From: Dysgonomonas sp. Marseille-P4677
GTDB lineage: Bacteria; Bacteroidota; Bacteroidia; Bacteroidales; Dysgonomonadaceae
Assembly (NCBI RefSeq): GCF_016652235.1
Contig: NZ_JAEPKU010000037.1
Span: forward strand, 1-35,235
Reading direction: 5' to 3'
Length of the DNA: 35,235 bases
The stretch's first letter is position 1, and each line of letters starts with the position of its first letter. The notes under the pieces are model-generated. The model made no database searches. It saw only the letters and a program-made list of their open reading frames with translations, and was not told the DNA's origin. A program made the position numbers and the translations under genes. Positions 14,500-23,683 of the stretch are shown here, piece by piece.

Positions 14500-14530
14500 T
14501 TGTACATTTTATTTATATTCCGTACCTTTG
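14500..14530 (+). promoter_or_regulatory. Bacteroidota-type promoter of the PFL operon
   Basis: A -33 TTG at 14500-14502 and a -7 box TACCTTTG (TAnnTTTG) at 14523-14530 are 20 nt apart, as expected for the primary sigma factor of this phylum. Transcription would start around 14536-14538, exactly where the riboswitch begins. Confidence 0.8.
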
Positions 14531-14535
14531 CGCCG

Positions 14536-14745
14536 ATTTTGGTGTCGTTATTTATATTCGTAGATAATGATGAAAAGGGAACTGAGTGAGAATCCCAGAT
14601 AGACCCGCTGCTGTAAGCTCTATTTAAGCTTCAAATAATACTCTAGCCACTATTAACAATGGGAAGGCATTTGAAGAATGAGTAAGTCAGAAAACCTGCC
14701 AAAATAATTGAGGTTTGAAACTTTCGGGTAATAAAGGTATCAAAC
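14536..14745 (+). ncRNA. Cobalamin riboswitch in the pflB leader
   Basis: The leader matches the cobalamin (B12-box) riboswitch from end to end. P1 pairs ATTTTGG (14536-14542) with CCAAAAT (14699-14705). A hairpin follows at about 14545-14571. The core contains AAAAGGGAA, GTGAGAATCCC, ACCCGCTGCTGTAAGC, GCCACT, GGGAAGGC and the B12-box AGTCAGAAAACCTGCC. A second hairpin, P13 (14713-14718 with 14740-14745), exposes TAATA (14729-14733), which is complementary to TATTA in L5 (14651-14655). This is the kissing-loop pair that the class uses to sense the ligand. No clear expression platform was found in the 95 nt before pflB. This class normally lowers expression when B12 is present. Confidence 0.93.
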
Positions 14746-14840
14746 GATCTGATATTATTCATAAAAAAAAGAATACTAAATAGCAAGTTATATACTTACA
14801 ACTTTTTATATAAGCATAATTTACAAATTCAATAATAGAA

Positions 14841-17072
14841 ATGGAAGCGTATAAAGACTTTAAAGGGAATAAATGGAAAGAAGAAATCAATGTAAATGAT
14901 TTCATTCTTAAAAACTATACTGAATATACAGGCGATGAATCTTTTCTGGAGAATCCGACAGTAGCGACAAAAGAACTTTGGGCTAAATTGAGCGAAATGT
15001 TTATAGAAGAGAAAAAAAGAGGTATCTATGATGCTGAAACTAAATACCCTTCTCAGATCGATGCTTACGGAGCCGGATATATTGACAAGAACTTAGAGAA
15101 AATTGTAGGTATACAAACAGACAAGCCTCTCAAAAGAGCTATATTTCCGAATGGAGGATTACGAATGGTACAGCAAAGCCTTGAAGAGTATGGTTACAAA
15201 TTAGATTCTAATACAGCAGAAATATTCACTAAATATCGTAGGACTCACAACGAAGGTGTATTTTCTGCATATACAGATAGTATCCGCCGTGCCAGAAGTA
15301 ACGGCTTATTAACAGGATTGCCCGACGCATACGGACGAGGACGTATTATCGGTGATTATCGTCGTGTAGCACTCTATGGTATAGATCGTTTAATAGCAGA
15401 AAGGGAAAAACGTTTTAAAGAATGTGACCCTATCGTAATGACAGACGATCTGATCCGCCTCCGCGAAGAATTAAGTTCTCAATTATTGGCGTTAAAAGCA
15501 TTAAAAAGAATGGCTTCAGCATATGGCTTTGATATTTCACAGCCTGCTAAGACAGCTCAAGAAGCTATTCAATGGACATATTTCGGCTATCTAGGCGCCA
15601 TTAAAGATCAGAATGGGGCCGCCATGAGTCTTGGCAGAGTAACCACATTCTTAGACATTTATATAGAGCGTGATCTTAAAGCCGGCCTTATCACAGAATC
15701 TGAAGCTCAAGAATTTATCGATCATTTTGTGATGAAACTGCGCATCGTGAGATTCTTACGTACACCCGAATACGACGAACTGTTCTCGGGTGACCCGGTT
15801 TGGGTAACTGAATCGATAGGCGGTATGACCAATAACGGGCACTCGATGGTTACTAAAAACAGCTTCCGAATGCTGCATACTTTATATAATTTAGGACCTG
15901 CACCGGAACCTAATCTTACCATTCTTTGGAGTGACCGTTTGCCCGATGCATGGAAAAAATATTGTGCAAAAGTATCTATTGACACTTCATCGCTTCAATA
16001 TGAAAACGACGACATTATGCGTCCTCAACTAGGCGATGACTACGGTATCGCTTGTTGTGTTTCGCCTATGCGTATAGGTCACCAAATGCAATTTTTCGGT
16101 GCACGAGCCAATCTGCCTAAAGCTCTGCTTTATACAATAAACGGAGGTAAAGACGAGAAAACAAAAGCGCAGGTATTACCTAAACATTGGATAGAAAAAG
16201 TTACCGGCGATTATCTTGAGTTTGATGAAGTATGGGAAAAATTTGACCGAACATTAGACTGGGTTGCCGAAACTTACGTGAAAGCATTAAATATTATCCA
16301 CTATATGCACGATAAATATTCGTACGAAGCACTTGAGATGGCTTTACACGATGTAGATATTGTGCGTACACAAGCCTTTGGAGTATCCGGATTGTCTATT
16401 CTCGCCGATTCGTTTGCTGCAATTAAGTTCGGTAAAGTTCGCATTGTCAGGGATGAGGATGGCGATGCAGTCGACTACATAGTAGAAAAAGAGTATATTC
16501 CATTCGGAAATAATGATGATAATACAGATAAATTTGCGGTAGAAATTGTTGAGAAGTTTATGAATAAGATCCGTAAACGTAAGATGTATAAAGATGCAAT
16601 ACCTACACAATCTGTGTTAACTATAACATCTAATGTTGTTTATGGCAAGAAAACAGGTAATACACCTGACGGACGTCGCGACGGAACGCCATTTGCACCG
16701 GGTGCAAACCCAATGCATGGCCGAGATACAAAAGGAGCGGTAGCTTCTCTCTCTTCGGTAGCCAAACTTCCGTTTGAACATGCGAATGATGGTATTTCAT
16801 ATACGTTCGCAATAACACCTAATACATTGGGTAAAAACAGGAATGAAGAAGCCGCAAACCTATCAGGTCTGCTCGACGGATATTTTCTTCAATCAGGACA
16901 TCATTTAAATGTAAATGTATTTGATCGGGATTTACTGGTTGATGCAATGGAACATCCTGAGAAGTATCCTCAATTGACAATACGTGTATCAGGTTACGCT
17001 GTTAATTTTGTAAAGCTCACACGCGAACAACAGCTGGATGTGATAAACAGAACAATAACAACGACATTCTAA
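14841..17072 (+). CDS. pflB: Formate C-acetyltransferase (pyruvate formate-lyase)
   Basis: Cytoplasmic glycyl-radical enzyme that converts pyruvate plus CoA to acetyl-CoA plus formate under anoxic conditions. The 743 residues match PFL length. The active-site pair Cys405-Cys406 lies in GIACCVSPM, and the radical glycine is Gly718 in [12 protein letters not shown]. Other family stretches are [18 protein letters not shown] (158-175) and [11 protein letters not shown]. The double cysteine separates it from B12-independent diol or glycerol dehydratases and choline lyase, which have one cysteine. It is the first gene of a pflB-pflA-focA unit and carries a cobalamin riboswitch in its leader, which is unexpected for an enzyme unrelated to B12. 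Confidence 0.98.
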
Positions 17073-17095
17073 CTCATACAATAATTATTCTTATA

Positions 17096-17137
17096 AACAG
17101 AGAATCGTATTTTACGATTCTCTGTTAATTTTGTTTT
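17096..17137 (+). terminator. Intercistronic hairpin between pflB and pflA
   Basis: A perfect 14-bp stem (AACAGAGAATCGTA at 17096-17109 with its inverse at 17113-17126) and a 3-nt loop, followed by a T-rich stretch that runs to the pflA ATG. This has the form of an intrinsic terminator inside the operon. It probably lets only some transcripts continue, giving more pflB than pflA, as suits a catalytic activase. Confidence 0.7.
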
Positions 17138-17854
17138 ATGCAGGGATACATTCACTCTTTCGAAACCTTTGGAACAAAAGACGGTCCGGGAATCCGCTTT
17201 GTACTATTTATGCAAGGCTGCCCTTTGCGTTGTCTATATTGTCATAACCCTGATACATGGAAAATAAAAAAAGCTAAGTACGAATTAACTCCACAAGAAG
17301 TTTTTCAAGAGATAAACAAAGTGAAAGCTTTTGTTCGCGGAGGTGTCACCATCTCGGGTGGAGAGCCTTTATTGCAACCCGAATTTATATTGGAGTTATT
17401 CAAAATATGTAAAGAACAAAACATCCATACCGCAATTGACACTTCAGGTATATTATTGAACGAGCAAGTAAAACAAGTACTTGAATATACCGATTTGGTT
17501 TTACTGGATATAAAGCATATCAATTCCGAAAAATATAAAAAACTGACTAATGCCTCATTAGAACCAACACTGAAATTCATGGATTATCTGGCTTCTATGA
17601 ATAAATCTACGTGGTTACGCTATGTTCTTGTCCCCAATTATACTGATGAGGAGGAGGATTTGAAAGAATGGGCCAGGTATGCATCACAATTCAAAAACGT
17701 GGAGAGAGTAGACGTTCTACCATTCCACCAGATGGCAATCCATAAATGGGACGAACTGAACATCGAATACAAACTTAGGGATATAACTCCCACTAGTTTA
17801 GAACAAAAAGAAAAGGCGGAAACTATTTTCAAGTCCTTTGGTCTGCCTGTTTAA
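17138..17854 (+). CDS. pflA: Pyruvate formate-lyase activating enzyme
   Basis: Radical SAM enzyme that abstracts a hydrogen from the PFL glycine. The iron-sulfur cluster motif CxxxCxxC is Cys28-Cys32-Cys35 in MQGCPLRCLYCHNPD. The GGE SAM-binding segment is present as VTISGGEPLLQPEF, and the later VLVPNYTDEEEDL and ERVDVLPFHQMAIHKW match PflA. At 238 residues the length is normal and there is no extra ferredoxin domain, which separates it from activases of other glycyl-radical enzymes. It lies 65 nt after pflB, behind a terminator-like hairpin, and 21 nt before the formate channel gene. Confidence 0.97.
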   Translation: MQGYIHSFETFGTKDGPGIRFVLFMQGCPLRCLYCHNPDTWKIKKAKYELTPQEVFQEINKVKAFVRGGVTISGGEPLLQPEFILELFKICKEQNIHTAIDTSGILLNEQVKQVLEYTDLVLLDIKHINSEKYKKLTNASLEPTLKFMDYLASMNKSTWLRYVLVPNYTDEEEDLKEWARYASQFKNVERVDVLPFHQMAIHKWDELNIEYKLRDITPTSLEQKEKAETIFKSFGLPV

Positions 17855-17875
17855 AATACAATCATATCTAAATTC

Positions 17876-18676
17876 ATGCTTAATTATTATAAACCAAAAG
17901 AAATAACCCACAGCTTTGCAGCCTCTGCCGATATTAAGAGTAATATGATACTCATCAAATTCTGTATATTATCTGTACTCGGAGGCGTATTCATTGCTTT
18001 TGGAGGGCTTCTTTCTGTTGTAGTTGCAGGTGGAATGCCCGGTGTAGCTGCATCTAATCCCGGTCTTATAAAATTTGTAGCCGGAGTGTTATTTCCTGTC
18101 GGGTTGATTATGGTTTCTATTACAGGAGCTGACCTTTTCACCAGTAATTGTGCAGCATTCACTTATCCATTATTAGAGAAGAGGATTAAGGCTAAATTAT
18201 TTTTTAAATATTTATTACTGTCTTATATATTCAATTTTGCAGGCACACAAATTGTAGCTTTCATTCTTTCTTTTCAGGTCGGATTACTGGATAATGATCC
18301 TTGGTTAACTTATTTACATCATTATTCCGAAATGAAGGTTGATCAGGATTTCGCAACTGTTTTTATTAAAGGAATAGGTGCTAATTGGCTTGTTTGTTTA
18401 GGTATGTTTATGGGATATGCAGCCAAAGACATCTCAGGAAAGTGTATCGGAATATGGATTCCGGTAATGTTGTTTGTGACGTTAGGATATGAACATTCAA
18501 TCGCAAACATGTTCTTTATTCCTGCTGCAATATATTCTGGAGCTGATATATCTTGGAATGCTTTCATATTGCAAAATCTTATTCCTGCCACAATCGGTAA
18601 TATTATAGGAGGAGGTGGACTAGTCGGTTGTATATATTGGTATTTATATCTTAAAAACGAAAGTATTACAAAGTAG
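17876..18676 (+). CDS. focA: Formate/nitrite transporter family channel (FocA-like)
   Basis: Inner-membrane pentameric channel of the FNT family, 266 residues with six hydrophobic helices. Family stretches are GADLFTSN near 84-91 (GAELFTGN in E. coli), the IGANWLVCLGMFMGY segment, and GYEHSIANMFFIP, which includes the conserved gating histidine His207. Its place directly after pflB and pflA makes formate the likely substrate, in or out depending on pH. A terminator overlaps its stop codon, so it is the last gene of the operon. Nitrite as substrate is less likely, as no nitrite genes are nearby. Confidence 0.93.
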   Translation: MLNYYKPKEITHSFAASADIKSNMILIKFCILSVLGGVFIAFGGLLSVVVAGGMPGVAASNPGLIKFVAGVLFPVGLIMVSITGADLFTSNCAAFTYPLLEKRIKAKLFFKYLLLSYIFNFAGTQIVAFILSFQVGLLDNDPWLTYLHHYSEMKVDQDFATVFIKGIGANWLVCLGMFMGYAAKDISGKCIGIWIPVMLFVTLGYEHSIANMFFIPAAIYSGADISWNAFILQNLIPATIGNIIGGGGLVGCIYWYLYLKNESITK

Positions 18677-18706
18677 CCACGAAAAAGTATTCTTTCGTGG
18701 CTACTT
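18671..18706 (+). terminator. Terminator after focA
   Basis: A perfect 14-bp stem (18671-18684 with 18693-18706) with an 8-nt loop overlaps the focA stop codon. It is followed by a short T/A-rich stretch and marks the end of the PFL operon. Confidence 0.8.
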
Positions 18707-22774: not shown

Positions 22775-23425
22775 TCACTCTTTGAACGACTCTTCTGATA
22801 TTCTGTATTTATAAATATCATCGACTGAAACAACCGACATATTATGTTTTTCCGCAAAATCGATTATTTCGGGCATTCTTGCCATAGTTCCATCTTGGTT
22901 TGTTAGCTCACATAATATAGAAGTATCTCCTAATCCGGCTAATTTTACAAGATCTATACTACCCTCTGTATGTCCCCTTCTTTCAATGACACCTTTTTCT
23001 CTTGCTATCAAAGGAAAAACATGCCCCGGATGTGCAAGATCTATCGGTTTAGCATTTTTTGAAATCGCTGTTTTTATCGTATGAACCCTGTCAGCAGCCG
23101 AAACTCCTGTCGTAACTCCTTCTTTTGCTTCTATCGATATAGTAAAAGCCGTTTGGTTTTTACTTGTATTATGGCTTACCATCGGATGTAGCTCAAGCCT
23201 TTGACTTTTGTCAGGAGTTAGGCATAAACAAACAATTCCACTACATTCTCGAATCATTAAAGCCATATCTTGAACAGTAATTGTTTCGGCAGGGAAAATT
23301 ATATCACCTTCATTTTCTCTGTTTTCGTCATCAACAAGTATAATTCCTTTTCCCGATTGTAATTTACTTACTGCATTTTCGACACGTTCTTTGTAATCTG
23401 TTCCAAAATCTTTGATTGTTTTCAT
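22775..23425 (-). CDS. ribB: 3,4-dihydroxy-2-butanone-4-phosphate synthase
   Basis: Converts ribulose 5-phosphate to the four-carbon precursor of riboflavin. The metal-binding acidic motif [17 protein letters not shown] and the later [36 protein letters not shown] and [14 protein letters not shown] all match RibB. From the ATG at 23425 the protein is 216 residues, close to the 217 of E. coli RibB. An in-frame ATG at 23443 adds six residues but lies inside a stem that covers the translation start, so the later ATG is preferred. There is no fused GTP cyclohydrolase II (RibA) domain. An FMN riboswitch lies upstream. Confidence 0.95.
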
Positions 23426-23429
23426 TTGT

Positions 23430-23477
23430 TTACCCTGTTTCATTAATAATTAAAATTCATACTCTAACACAGGGTAA
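23430..23477 (-). promoter_or_regulatory. Start-site sequestering hairpin of ribB
   Basis: TTACCCTGT and ACAGGGTAA pair perfectly (plus-strand 23430-23438 with 23469-23477). On the mRNA the 3' arm, containing AGGG, lies 4 nt before the preferred ribB ATG. This is a plausible translational expression platform of the FMN riboswitch, hiding the ribosome site when FMN is bound. Structure seen, role inferred. Confidence 0.55.
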
Positions 23478-23554
23478 TAAAAGAAGGGGAAGTACACACA
23501 TAACACCATACTGACAGGCATACGCCAATCGGTAGATAATATGTTCATTATCTT

Positions 23555-23676
23555 TATCCTTCTCCCATCCAGACTTTAACTGTCGGTTTTGGAGTTTCAC
23601 CAAATCAATCCTTTTTTTATGAAGGAGTCGCGGACTATCACCGCCGGTAAGGAATTACACCCTGCCCTGAAGAATA
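23555..23676 (-). ncRNA. FMN riboswitch (RFN element)
   Basis: The minus strand matches the RFN element throughout: P1 pairs TATTCTTC with GAAGGATA at the two ends, and the core shows AGGGCAGGGTG, AATTCCTTACCGGCGGT, AGTCCGCGAC, GATTTGGTGAAACTCC, ACCGACAGT and AGTCTGGATGGGAGAAGG. The variable arm (CTCCTTC...AAGGAT) is also recognisable. A consensus -7 box lies just upstream on the minus strand (TAATTTTG, plus positions 23684-23691). It controls ribB; the 75-nt linker holds two further hairpins (23534-23553 and 23430-23477). Confidence 0.97.
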
Positions 23677-23683
23677 TCGATAG

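Follow-up and report, generated by a model that had tools for sequence, protein, structure and literature searches.

Why should an RNA that senses vitamin B12 stand before a central fermentation gene? The question is raised by a 35,235 nucleotide (nt) stretch of Dysgonomonas sp. Marseille-P4677 (contig NZ_JAEPKU010000037.1, positions 1 to 35,235, forward strand; the whole stretch is termed the window), in which a cobalamin riboswitch precedes pflB, the gene for pyruvate formate-lyase (PFL), followed by pflA and a focA-like gene. In the excerpts available of the cobalamin regulon survey PMC3766115, the target classes are B12 synthesis, transport of B12 and cobalt, and isozymes of B12-dependent enzymes. 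A sequence-only reading of the window had already set PFL outside the usual targets. The family model identifies the enzyme as formate C-acetyltransferase, an activity that, to our knowledge, no B12-dependent enzyme has, and PFL therefore falls outside the class of B12-independent isozymes. The answer that we favour, and hold to be fairly probable, is that a class-I, adenosylcobalamin (AdoCbl)-type riboswitch lowers pflB expression under ample B12 as part of a B12-scarcity regulon, with an accompanying shift in fermentation. What the sequences show is the aptamer, its promoter box, the conserved placement and the kinds of gene targeted; the ligand, repression by B12 and the shift in fermentation are inferences.

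The pflB leader is a cobalamin riboswitch

The following features were located in the leader, all on the forward strand.

14500-14530, forward: Bacteroidota-type promoter, with TTG at 14500-14502, 20 nt, and the -7 box TACCTTTG at 14523-14530
14523-14717, forward: cobalamin riboswitch aptamer RF00174, covariance match of 95.1 bits against a gathering score of 31.5
14603-14607, forward: L5 loop ACCCG, complement of L13 CGGGT
14685-14700, forward: B12 box AGTCAGAAAACCTGCC, read in the sequence
14713-14745, forward: P13 hairpin with L13 CGGGT (14725-14729), an L13-type motif

The RF00174 match covers the full length of the model (1-189 of 189, E 1.1e-22 in cmscan) and scores three times the gathering score. 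The -7 box, recognised by what we take to be the Bacteroidota consensus, coincides with the 5′ edge of the aptamer match, in agreement with the promoter proposed earlier. Of 15 pflB leaders, 14 have TANNTTTG at the 5′ end of the aptamer, as do 126 of 163 other riboswitch leaders, but only 28 of 1246 background windows contain it. The B12-box motif is present in 178 of the 180 riboswitches in the first set fetched.

L5 and L13 are exact complements in the window, and the pairing was assessed in 168 usable riboswitches out of this first set of 180. In 120 of them a 4-nt complement of L5 lies within 70 nt after the B12 box, whereas permuting the tails among riboswitches gave a mean of 84.7 and a maximum of 99 in 500 permutations. 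Loop-loop pairing is supported by this excess, though the 4-nt match is missing in two of 14 intact pflB leaders (G006 and G024; G handles denote genomes, L handles contigs or loci). The pflB leader is a cobalamin riboswitch with a B12 box and kissing loops, as the sequence-only reading had claimed. A palindrome-like repeat was also read 5′ of some start codons.

Genes downstream of the riboswitch

The remainder of the gene set is made up as follows.

14841-17072, forward: pflB, formate C-acetyltransferase, 743 aa (TIGR01255 1145.3 bits, cut-off 994.2; Gly_radical PF01228)
17096-17126, forward: terminator-like hairpin between pflB and pflA, 14 pairs with a T-rich tail
17138-17854, forward: pflA, PFL-activating radical S-adenosylmethionine (SAM) enzyme, 238 aa (TIGR02493 335.9 bits, cut-off 231.75)
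17876-18676, forward: focA-like FNT-family formate channel, 266 aa (TIGR00790 fnt 239.1 bits, cut-off 232.3)

Judged by these family models, the three products are a true PFL, its activase and an FNT-family channel. The active-site pair C405-C406 and the C-terminal glycyl radical loop RVSGYAVNF of PflB are invariant in 5 aligned orthologues. The formate channel of the earlier reading holds at the level of the broader FNT family only, as the protein (160.3 bits) misses the 290.1 cut-off of the FocA equivalog TIGR04060. A stem folds in the pflB-pflA gap in all 8 chosen genomes, with differing sequences, a count that has no shuffle comparison behind it; the hairpin may serve to set a high ratio of PFL to activase.

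Distribution and history of the arrangement

PFL and RF00174 were searched in 101 genomes of the family Dysgonomonadaceae, and all riboswitch matches were then listed in 31 relatives and the Marseille-P4677 genome (32 genomes). GTDB genera g1 and g3 were taken as Dysgonomonas in the broad sense. A riboswitch is found on the same strand and no more than 700 nt 5′ of pflB in 15 of the 26 PFL-bearing genomes among the 32, so that the placement seen in the window recurs in 14 further genomes. Within g1 and g3 this corresponds to 15 of 24 assessable pflB genes; the 25th, in G008, could not be assessed, as it starts 4 bases from the end of its contig. Fourteen of the riboswitches are intact and score 74-109 bits; their gene neighbourhoods differ, and they have the L13 motif as well as the B12 and promoter boxes. 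The fifteenth, in G011 (Dysgonomonas sp. 521; L028 3883-4013, reverse strand), is a decaying cobalamin riboswitch of 32.8 bits that retains the promoter box and first stem region, and its B12 box was not found.

No riboswitch was detected by cmscan 5′ of the PFL genes in 25 genomes of other genera of the family, three of which have less than 400 nt upstream (G084 356, G066 162 and G077 72 nt); G044, G069 and G076, from other genera and with partial PFL matches, are outside this count. At order level, the B12-box pattern was found upstream of none of 22 PFL genes, one having just 237 nt upstream. Likewise, there was none before pflB on 78 further named contigs, which with G011 and G032 (Dysgonomonas sp. 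HGC4) make up a set of 80 that was scanned by pattern only, except for L203, L204 and L213, and in which 6 contigs give less than 600 nt upstream. A B12-box-like site 886 nt before pflB on the Prevotellaceae contig L213 was below the riboswitch threshold and was rejected.

All 13 riboswitch rows used in the pflB tree are within one clade of 19 with support 83/97 (not starred), in which 13 rows have the riboswitch, 5 lack it and 1 has a degenerate copy; the tree implies 5 changes in total. No branch of this tree has the outgroup as one of its sides, the branch to G035 is long, and G000 is placed with G034, a genome of a different GTDB genus; G011 was omitted from the state counts and G018 is absent. 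The nearest aptamer from a foreign genome is another pflB aptamer for 11 of the 15 pflB aptamers, and for a twelfth it is the focA aptamer of G030, where focA is separated from pflB-pflA and the two are served by separate riboswitches. A single origin followed by losses is likely on the tree. Chance was rejected as the origin of the pairing on the conserved placement, with no probability computed.

The degenerate G011 copy, together with the failure to detect anything even at E 10 at 7 of the 9 assessable g1/g3 pflB loci that are free of a riboswitch (for the other two, in G007 and G014, the gathering score was the sole threshold applied), might indicate that the element is a relic, or that it serves a short leader transcript and exerts no control over pflB. 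The 14 intact copies with all three motifs in varied neighbourhoods argue against this. Moreover, the open reading frames that overlap the aptamer-pflB interval in the window, counting both strands, are all of just 22-48 codons, and a terminator scan of the leader found no terminator-like site between the aptamer, past P13, and pflB. This is the least probable of the explanations considered.

Targets of cobalamin riboswitches in 32 genomes

In the 32 genomes, 218 riboswitches exceed the gathering score; 3 matches below it (2 in G018 and 1 in G030) were left out. Downstream DNA was compared with annotated references, giving target classes that overlap.

TonB/BtuB-type receptors: 75 riboswitches in 31 genomes
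Corrinoid synthesis: 43 riboswitches in 18 genomes
Cys-rich CWC protein and/or a 576-residue protein: 30 riboswitches in 20 genomes
NrdD: 18 riboswitches in 18 genomes
pflB: 15 riboswitches in 15 genomes
YjjPB-like pairs: 13 riboswitches in 13 genomes
focA: 11 riboswitches in 11 genomes, ten of them within the pfl set
Carboxylase: 9 riboswitches in 9 genomes
NrdEFI: 5 riboswitches in 5 genomes
4-hydroxybutyrate (4HB) gene set: 3 riboswitches in 3 genomes
MetE: 2 riboswitches in 2 genomes
AspT/YidE-family transporter: 2 riboswitches in 2 genomes

This composition points to a wider B12-scarcity regulon that would include nrdDG, nrdEFI, metE, exporters, bypass enzymes and a protein of phosphoenolpyruvate carboxykinase (PEPCK) fold. 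The assigned targets could all be placed under B12 uptake or synthesis, B12-independent substitutes, or a possible bypass of a stalled methylmalonyl-CoA mutase. Of the 101 family genomes, 97 have a match to this mutase, which exceeds the cut-off in 90, and the mutAB locus of the Marseille-P4677 genome has no B12 box within 2 mismatches. Pyruvate:ferredoxin oxidoreductase (PFOR) was found in every one of the 23 genomes searched for it, which makes PFL a second pyruvate route.

The two metE riboswitches show that the methionine branch does sense B12 in those genomes, and they bear on the proposal that, with MetH stalled and folate caught as methyl-tetrahydrofolate (methyl-THF), PFL feeds formate to one-carbon metabolism. 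Riboswitch-controlled metE is, however, confined to 2 of the 32 genomes, the use of formate requires the free THF that the methyl-THF trap removes, and co-regulation of focA points to export of formate. We consider this explanation highly improbable.

Direction of control

The L13-type motif of the pflB leader was scored within 75 nt downstream of the B12 box. It is present in 14/14 intact pflB leaders, 17/17 btuB2, 13/14 btuB1, 11/11 nrdD_a and 8/8 carboxylase leaders, but is rare in those of cbiL/cobI (1/13), cobQ (0/6), btuB3 (1/10), btuB4 (3/14) and yjjB (3/10), and both metE leaders lack it. Leader lengths overlap, the medians being 166 nt for pflB, 137 for btuB1, 108 for btuB2 and 120 for nrdD. 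According to a passage of PMC11575231, most of the cobalamin riboswitches described repress. The L13 motif held in common with two btuB groups and the nrdD leaders makes it likely that the pflB element is likewise an OFF switch, through which B12 would repress pflB.

The converse, an ON switch through which B12 would raise PFL, for example to balance propionate formation, draws on the fact that the sequence itself gives no direction and that the pflB leader has no terminator-like site after P13. Against it, the logic of the btuB and nrdD leaders with the same L13 motif demands repression, and the targets are genes of uptake and synthesis, B12-independent substitutes and possible bypass functions, with the mutAB locus of the same genome devoid of a B12 box. 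An ON switch is very unlikely.

A possible supply of formate for ribonucleotide reduction

A different purpose for formate is suggested by the nrdD genes. When B12-dependent ribonucleotide reductase (RNR) fails, PFL might supply formate as reductant to the B12-independent NrdD, and would then be no fermentation valve. The riboswitch-controlled NrdD of the Marseille-P4677 genome matches that of P. copri (8p23, 1338.6 bits), an enzyme that requires formate according to the portion of PMC11226230 available, and has Asn435 in the position that the third Cys occupies in redoxin types, as expected of the formate-requiring type. Riboswitch-nrdDG adjoins riboswitch-pflB in G006, G010, G023 and G024. 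In addition, riboswitch-nrdD occurs in 11/12 high-quality genomes with riboswitch-pflB against 2/9 without (Fisher p 0.0022, off-tree and uncorrected for kinship, with G011 counted as without).

However, the formate need of an RNR should be small, and the formate channel belongs to the same gene set, with its own riboswitch in G030. G005 has riboswitch-pflB, yet the NrdD behind a riboswitch there belongs to a different type, nrdD_b; the nrdD_b member of G007 was identified as TIGR02827 and is without the MGCR motif. G021 has riboswitch-pflB without riboswitch-nrdD, and the exporters and carboxylase are left unexplained. Formate supply to NrdD as the whole explanation is rather unlikely, and a shift in fermentation is preferred because the formate channel and the exporters are co-regulated; both may hold.

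Probable succinate exporters, a second carboxylase and 4-hydroxybutyrate

Under the preferred fermentation shift, scarcity of B12 would stall methylmalonyl-CoA mutase and stop the conversion of succinate to propionate, while the B12-independent substitutes nrdDG, nrdEFI and metE would be turned on. Succinate would leave by a dedicated second transporter of YjjPB or AspT type, and some species would reduce succinyl-CoA to 4HB. More pyruvate would pass through PFL to acetyl-CoA and formate, without the ferredoxin loading caused by PFOR; PFL could thus relieve ferredoxin loading while the succinate branch slows, and the FNT channel would let formate out.

The YjjP, MmdA and 4HB-CoA dehydratase counts come from 26 of the 32 genomes. 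PF06738 and PF12821 are taken here to correspond to YjjP and YjjB. YjjP (PF06738) is single copy in 13 genomes, in two copies in 12 and absent in one, one ThrE fragment row (G031) being omitted. Each of the 12 genomes with two copies has exactly one of them behind a riboswitch, and none of the 13 single copies is so placed. The available extract of PMC7236211 describes E. coli YjjPB as a transporter of succinate, and in that of PMC9527358 the AspT family includes the succinate exporter SucE1. In g3 genomes an extra riboswitch follows the YjjPB-like pair (L200 4580-4786 and L163 4502-4706, reverse strand; L191 3296-3502, forward strand), with no clear gene in the next 350 nt at any of the three.

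MmdA-like proteins, mostly of ∼793-821 bits and without a riboswitch, are found in all 26 genomes, in pieces in two of them. A divergent second copy (721-748 bits) is present in 12, and by a hand count of the divergent copies 9 of these 12 are behind a riboswitch; four fragment rows (G009 and G026) were omitted. In L044 (116-3178, reverse strand) and eight relatives, the divergent MmdA-like carboxyltransferase and a biotin carboxylase are behind a B12 riboswitch, and a carrier protein accompanies the carboxyltransferase in the relatives.

The riboswitch-linked 4HB set, spread over 3 genomes, comprises homologues of CoA-dependent succinate-semialdehyde dehydrogenase (nearest structure 8cei), 4HB dehydrogenase (30sm, named Cvir-Hbd2), 4HB CoA-transferase (3eh7) and 4HB-CoA dehydratase. 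For the last, the nearest structure is 1u8v (829 bits), followed by vinylacetyl-CoA isomerase (638 bits) and 4-hydroxyphenylacetate hydroxylases (134). The dehydratase gene of G018 is divergent from pflB on one contig. In L115 (3046-7564) and L101 (527-5300), a riboswitch is followed by 4HB dehydrogenase, CoA-dependent succinate-semialdehyde dehydrogenase and an AttM-type lactonase, with an AspT-family transporter after the lactonase in L101. The dehydratase was not found in the genomes of L115 and L101, where succinyl-CoA may end as 4HB or its lactone, although one of the two, G008, has a divergent riboswitch that extends past the contig end.

The spread of the mutase and the riboswitches before probable succinate exporters, the second MmdA-like carboxylase and a route for succinyl-CoA reduction lend indirect support to the model of the sequence-only reading, in which a block at the mutase would redirect carbon and electrons. 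That the B12 riboswitches together form a switch of fermentation mode, acting on PFL and formate, the second succinate exporter, the PEPCK-fold protein with a small Cys-rich partner, the MmdA-like carboxylase and 4HB, is a proposition on which we are evenly divided.

Evidence against the proposed B12-controlled fermentation shift

Several observations weigh against the interpretation that we prefer. The predicted folding energy of the pflB leader shows no excess stability over shuffles (z 0.27), and so the riboswitch claim is carried by the covariance match, and no regulatory mechanism was drawn from folding. Most corrinoid-synthesis and YjjPB leaders have another L13 motif, and 34 of the 218 riboswitches have no assigned target. 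The nine riboswitch-free pflB genes of g1 and g3 are found although the mutase is present.

The hairpin at 17096-17126 may cut off pflA-focA, perhaps with partial read-through, so that control of these two genes by the riboswitch is uncertain; of the operon proposed earlier, the gene order stands and the single transcription unit is partly supported. A simple balance of CO2 also disfavours PFL as the better route, since PFL, unlike PFOR, releases no CO2, and the formation of succinate without later decarboxylation consumes it.

The second YjjPB-like pair is a probable succinate exporter by homology only. The association of riboswitch-pflB with a riboswitch-exporter (10/12 against 1/9, Fisher p 0.0019) comes down on the tree, from which G035 was left out, to 3 independent pairs, of which typically 2 agree and 0 oppose, and is not significant. 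Finally, 4HB-CoA dehydratase was found in one of the 26 genomes, G018, which is 82% complete and 6% contaminated.

A flavin mononucleotide riboswitch in the window

The window also contains a flavin mononucleotide (FMN) riboswitch (RF00050, 119.1 bits; 23553-23678, reverse strand) before a 3,4-dihydroxy-2-butanone 4-phosphate synthase gene (22775-23443, reverse strand). As FMN motifs are not reported in Bacteroidaceae in the available excerpts of PMC3766115, Dysgonomonadaceae differs from that family.

Comparison with known systems

The riboswitches of metE and nrdDG have the same RF00174 aptamer class and targets that are wanted only under B12 shortage, and the nrdD leaders here share the L13 motif; PFL, however, replaces no B12 enzyme and acts at the pyruvate branch point. 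Xylanibacter ruminicola KHP1 is likewise a member of the Bacteroidales with B12-dependent propionate formation, but, in the sections of PMC11575231 consulted, its four riboswitches are near no propionate-pathway gene and the authors suggest post-translational control. In Tannerella, a cobalamin riboswitch precedes the gene for 4-hydroxybutyryl-CoA dehydratase, a succinate-derived fermentation gene; the excerpt of PMC7160235 gives this one passing sentence, labels it adenosylcobalamin biosynthesis and does not mention formate. B12 sensing also decides the use of a catabolic route, that of propanediol, in Listeria, as summarised in part of PMC11575231, but there the presence of B12 turns the route on via an antisense RNA, whereas in Dysgonomonas B12-independent genes are directly downstream.

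No description of the riboswitch-pflB pairing was found in the open-licence papers searched, in line with the sequence-only reading, which knew of none. The riboswitch class is known; what is new within that literature is its probable role as a fermentation switch in Dysgonomonas.

Implications

Cobalamin riboswitches are usually viewed as guards of B12 supply and isozyme choice, and here one stands before a central fermentation enzyme, with others in the genus before probable succinate exporters and bypass enzymes. If the proposed control is correct, the acids that a cell puts out would be set, through RNA alone, by a vitamin obtained from its neighbours; for Xylanibacter, by comparison, the authors favoured post-translational control. 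Recurrent genes of undefined role behind these switches also gain hints of function. The arrangement would directly link a shared vitamin to how much formate, succinate and propionate gut bacteria produce, in a way that can be tested.

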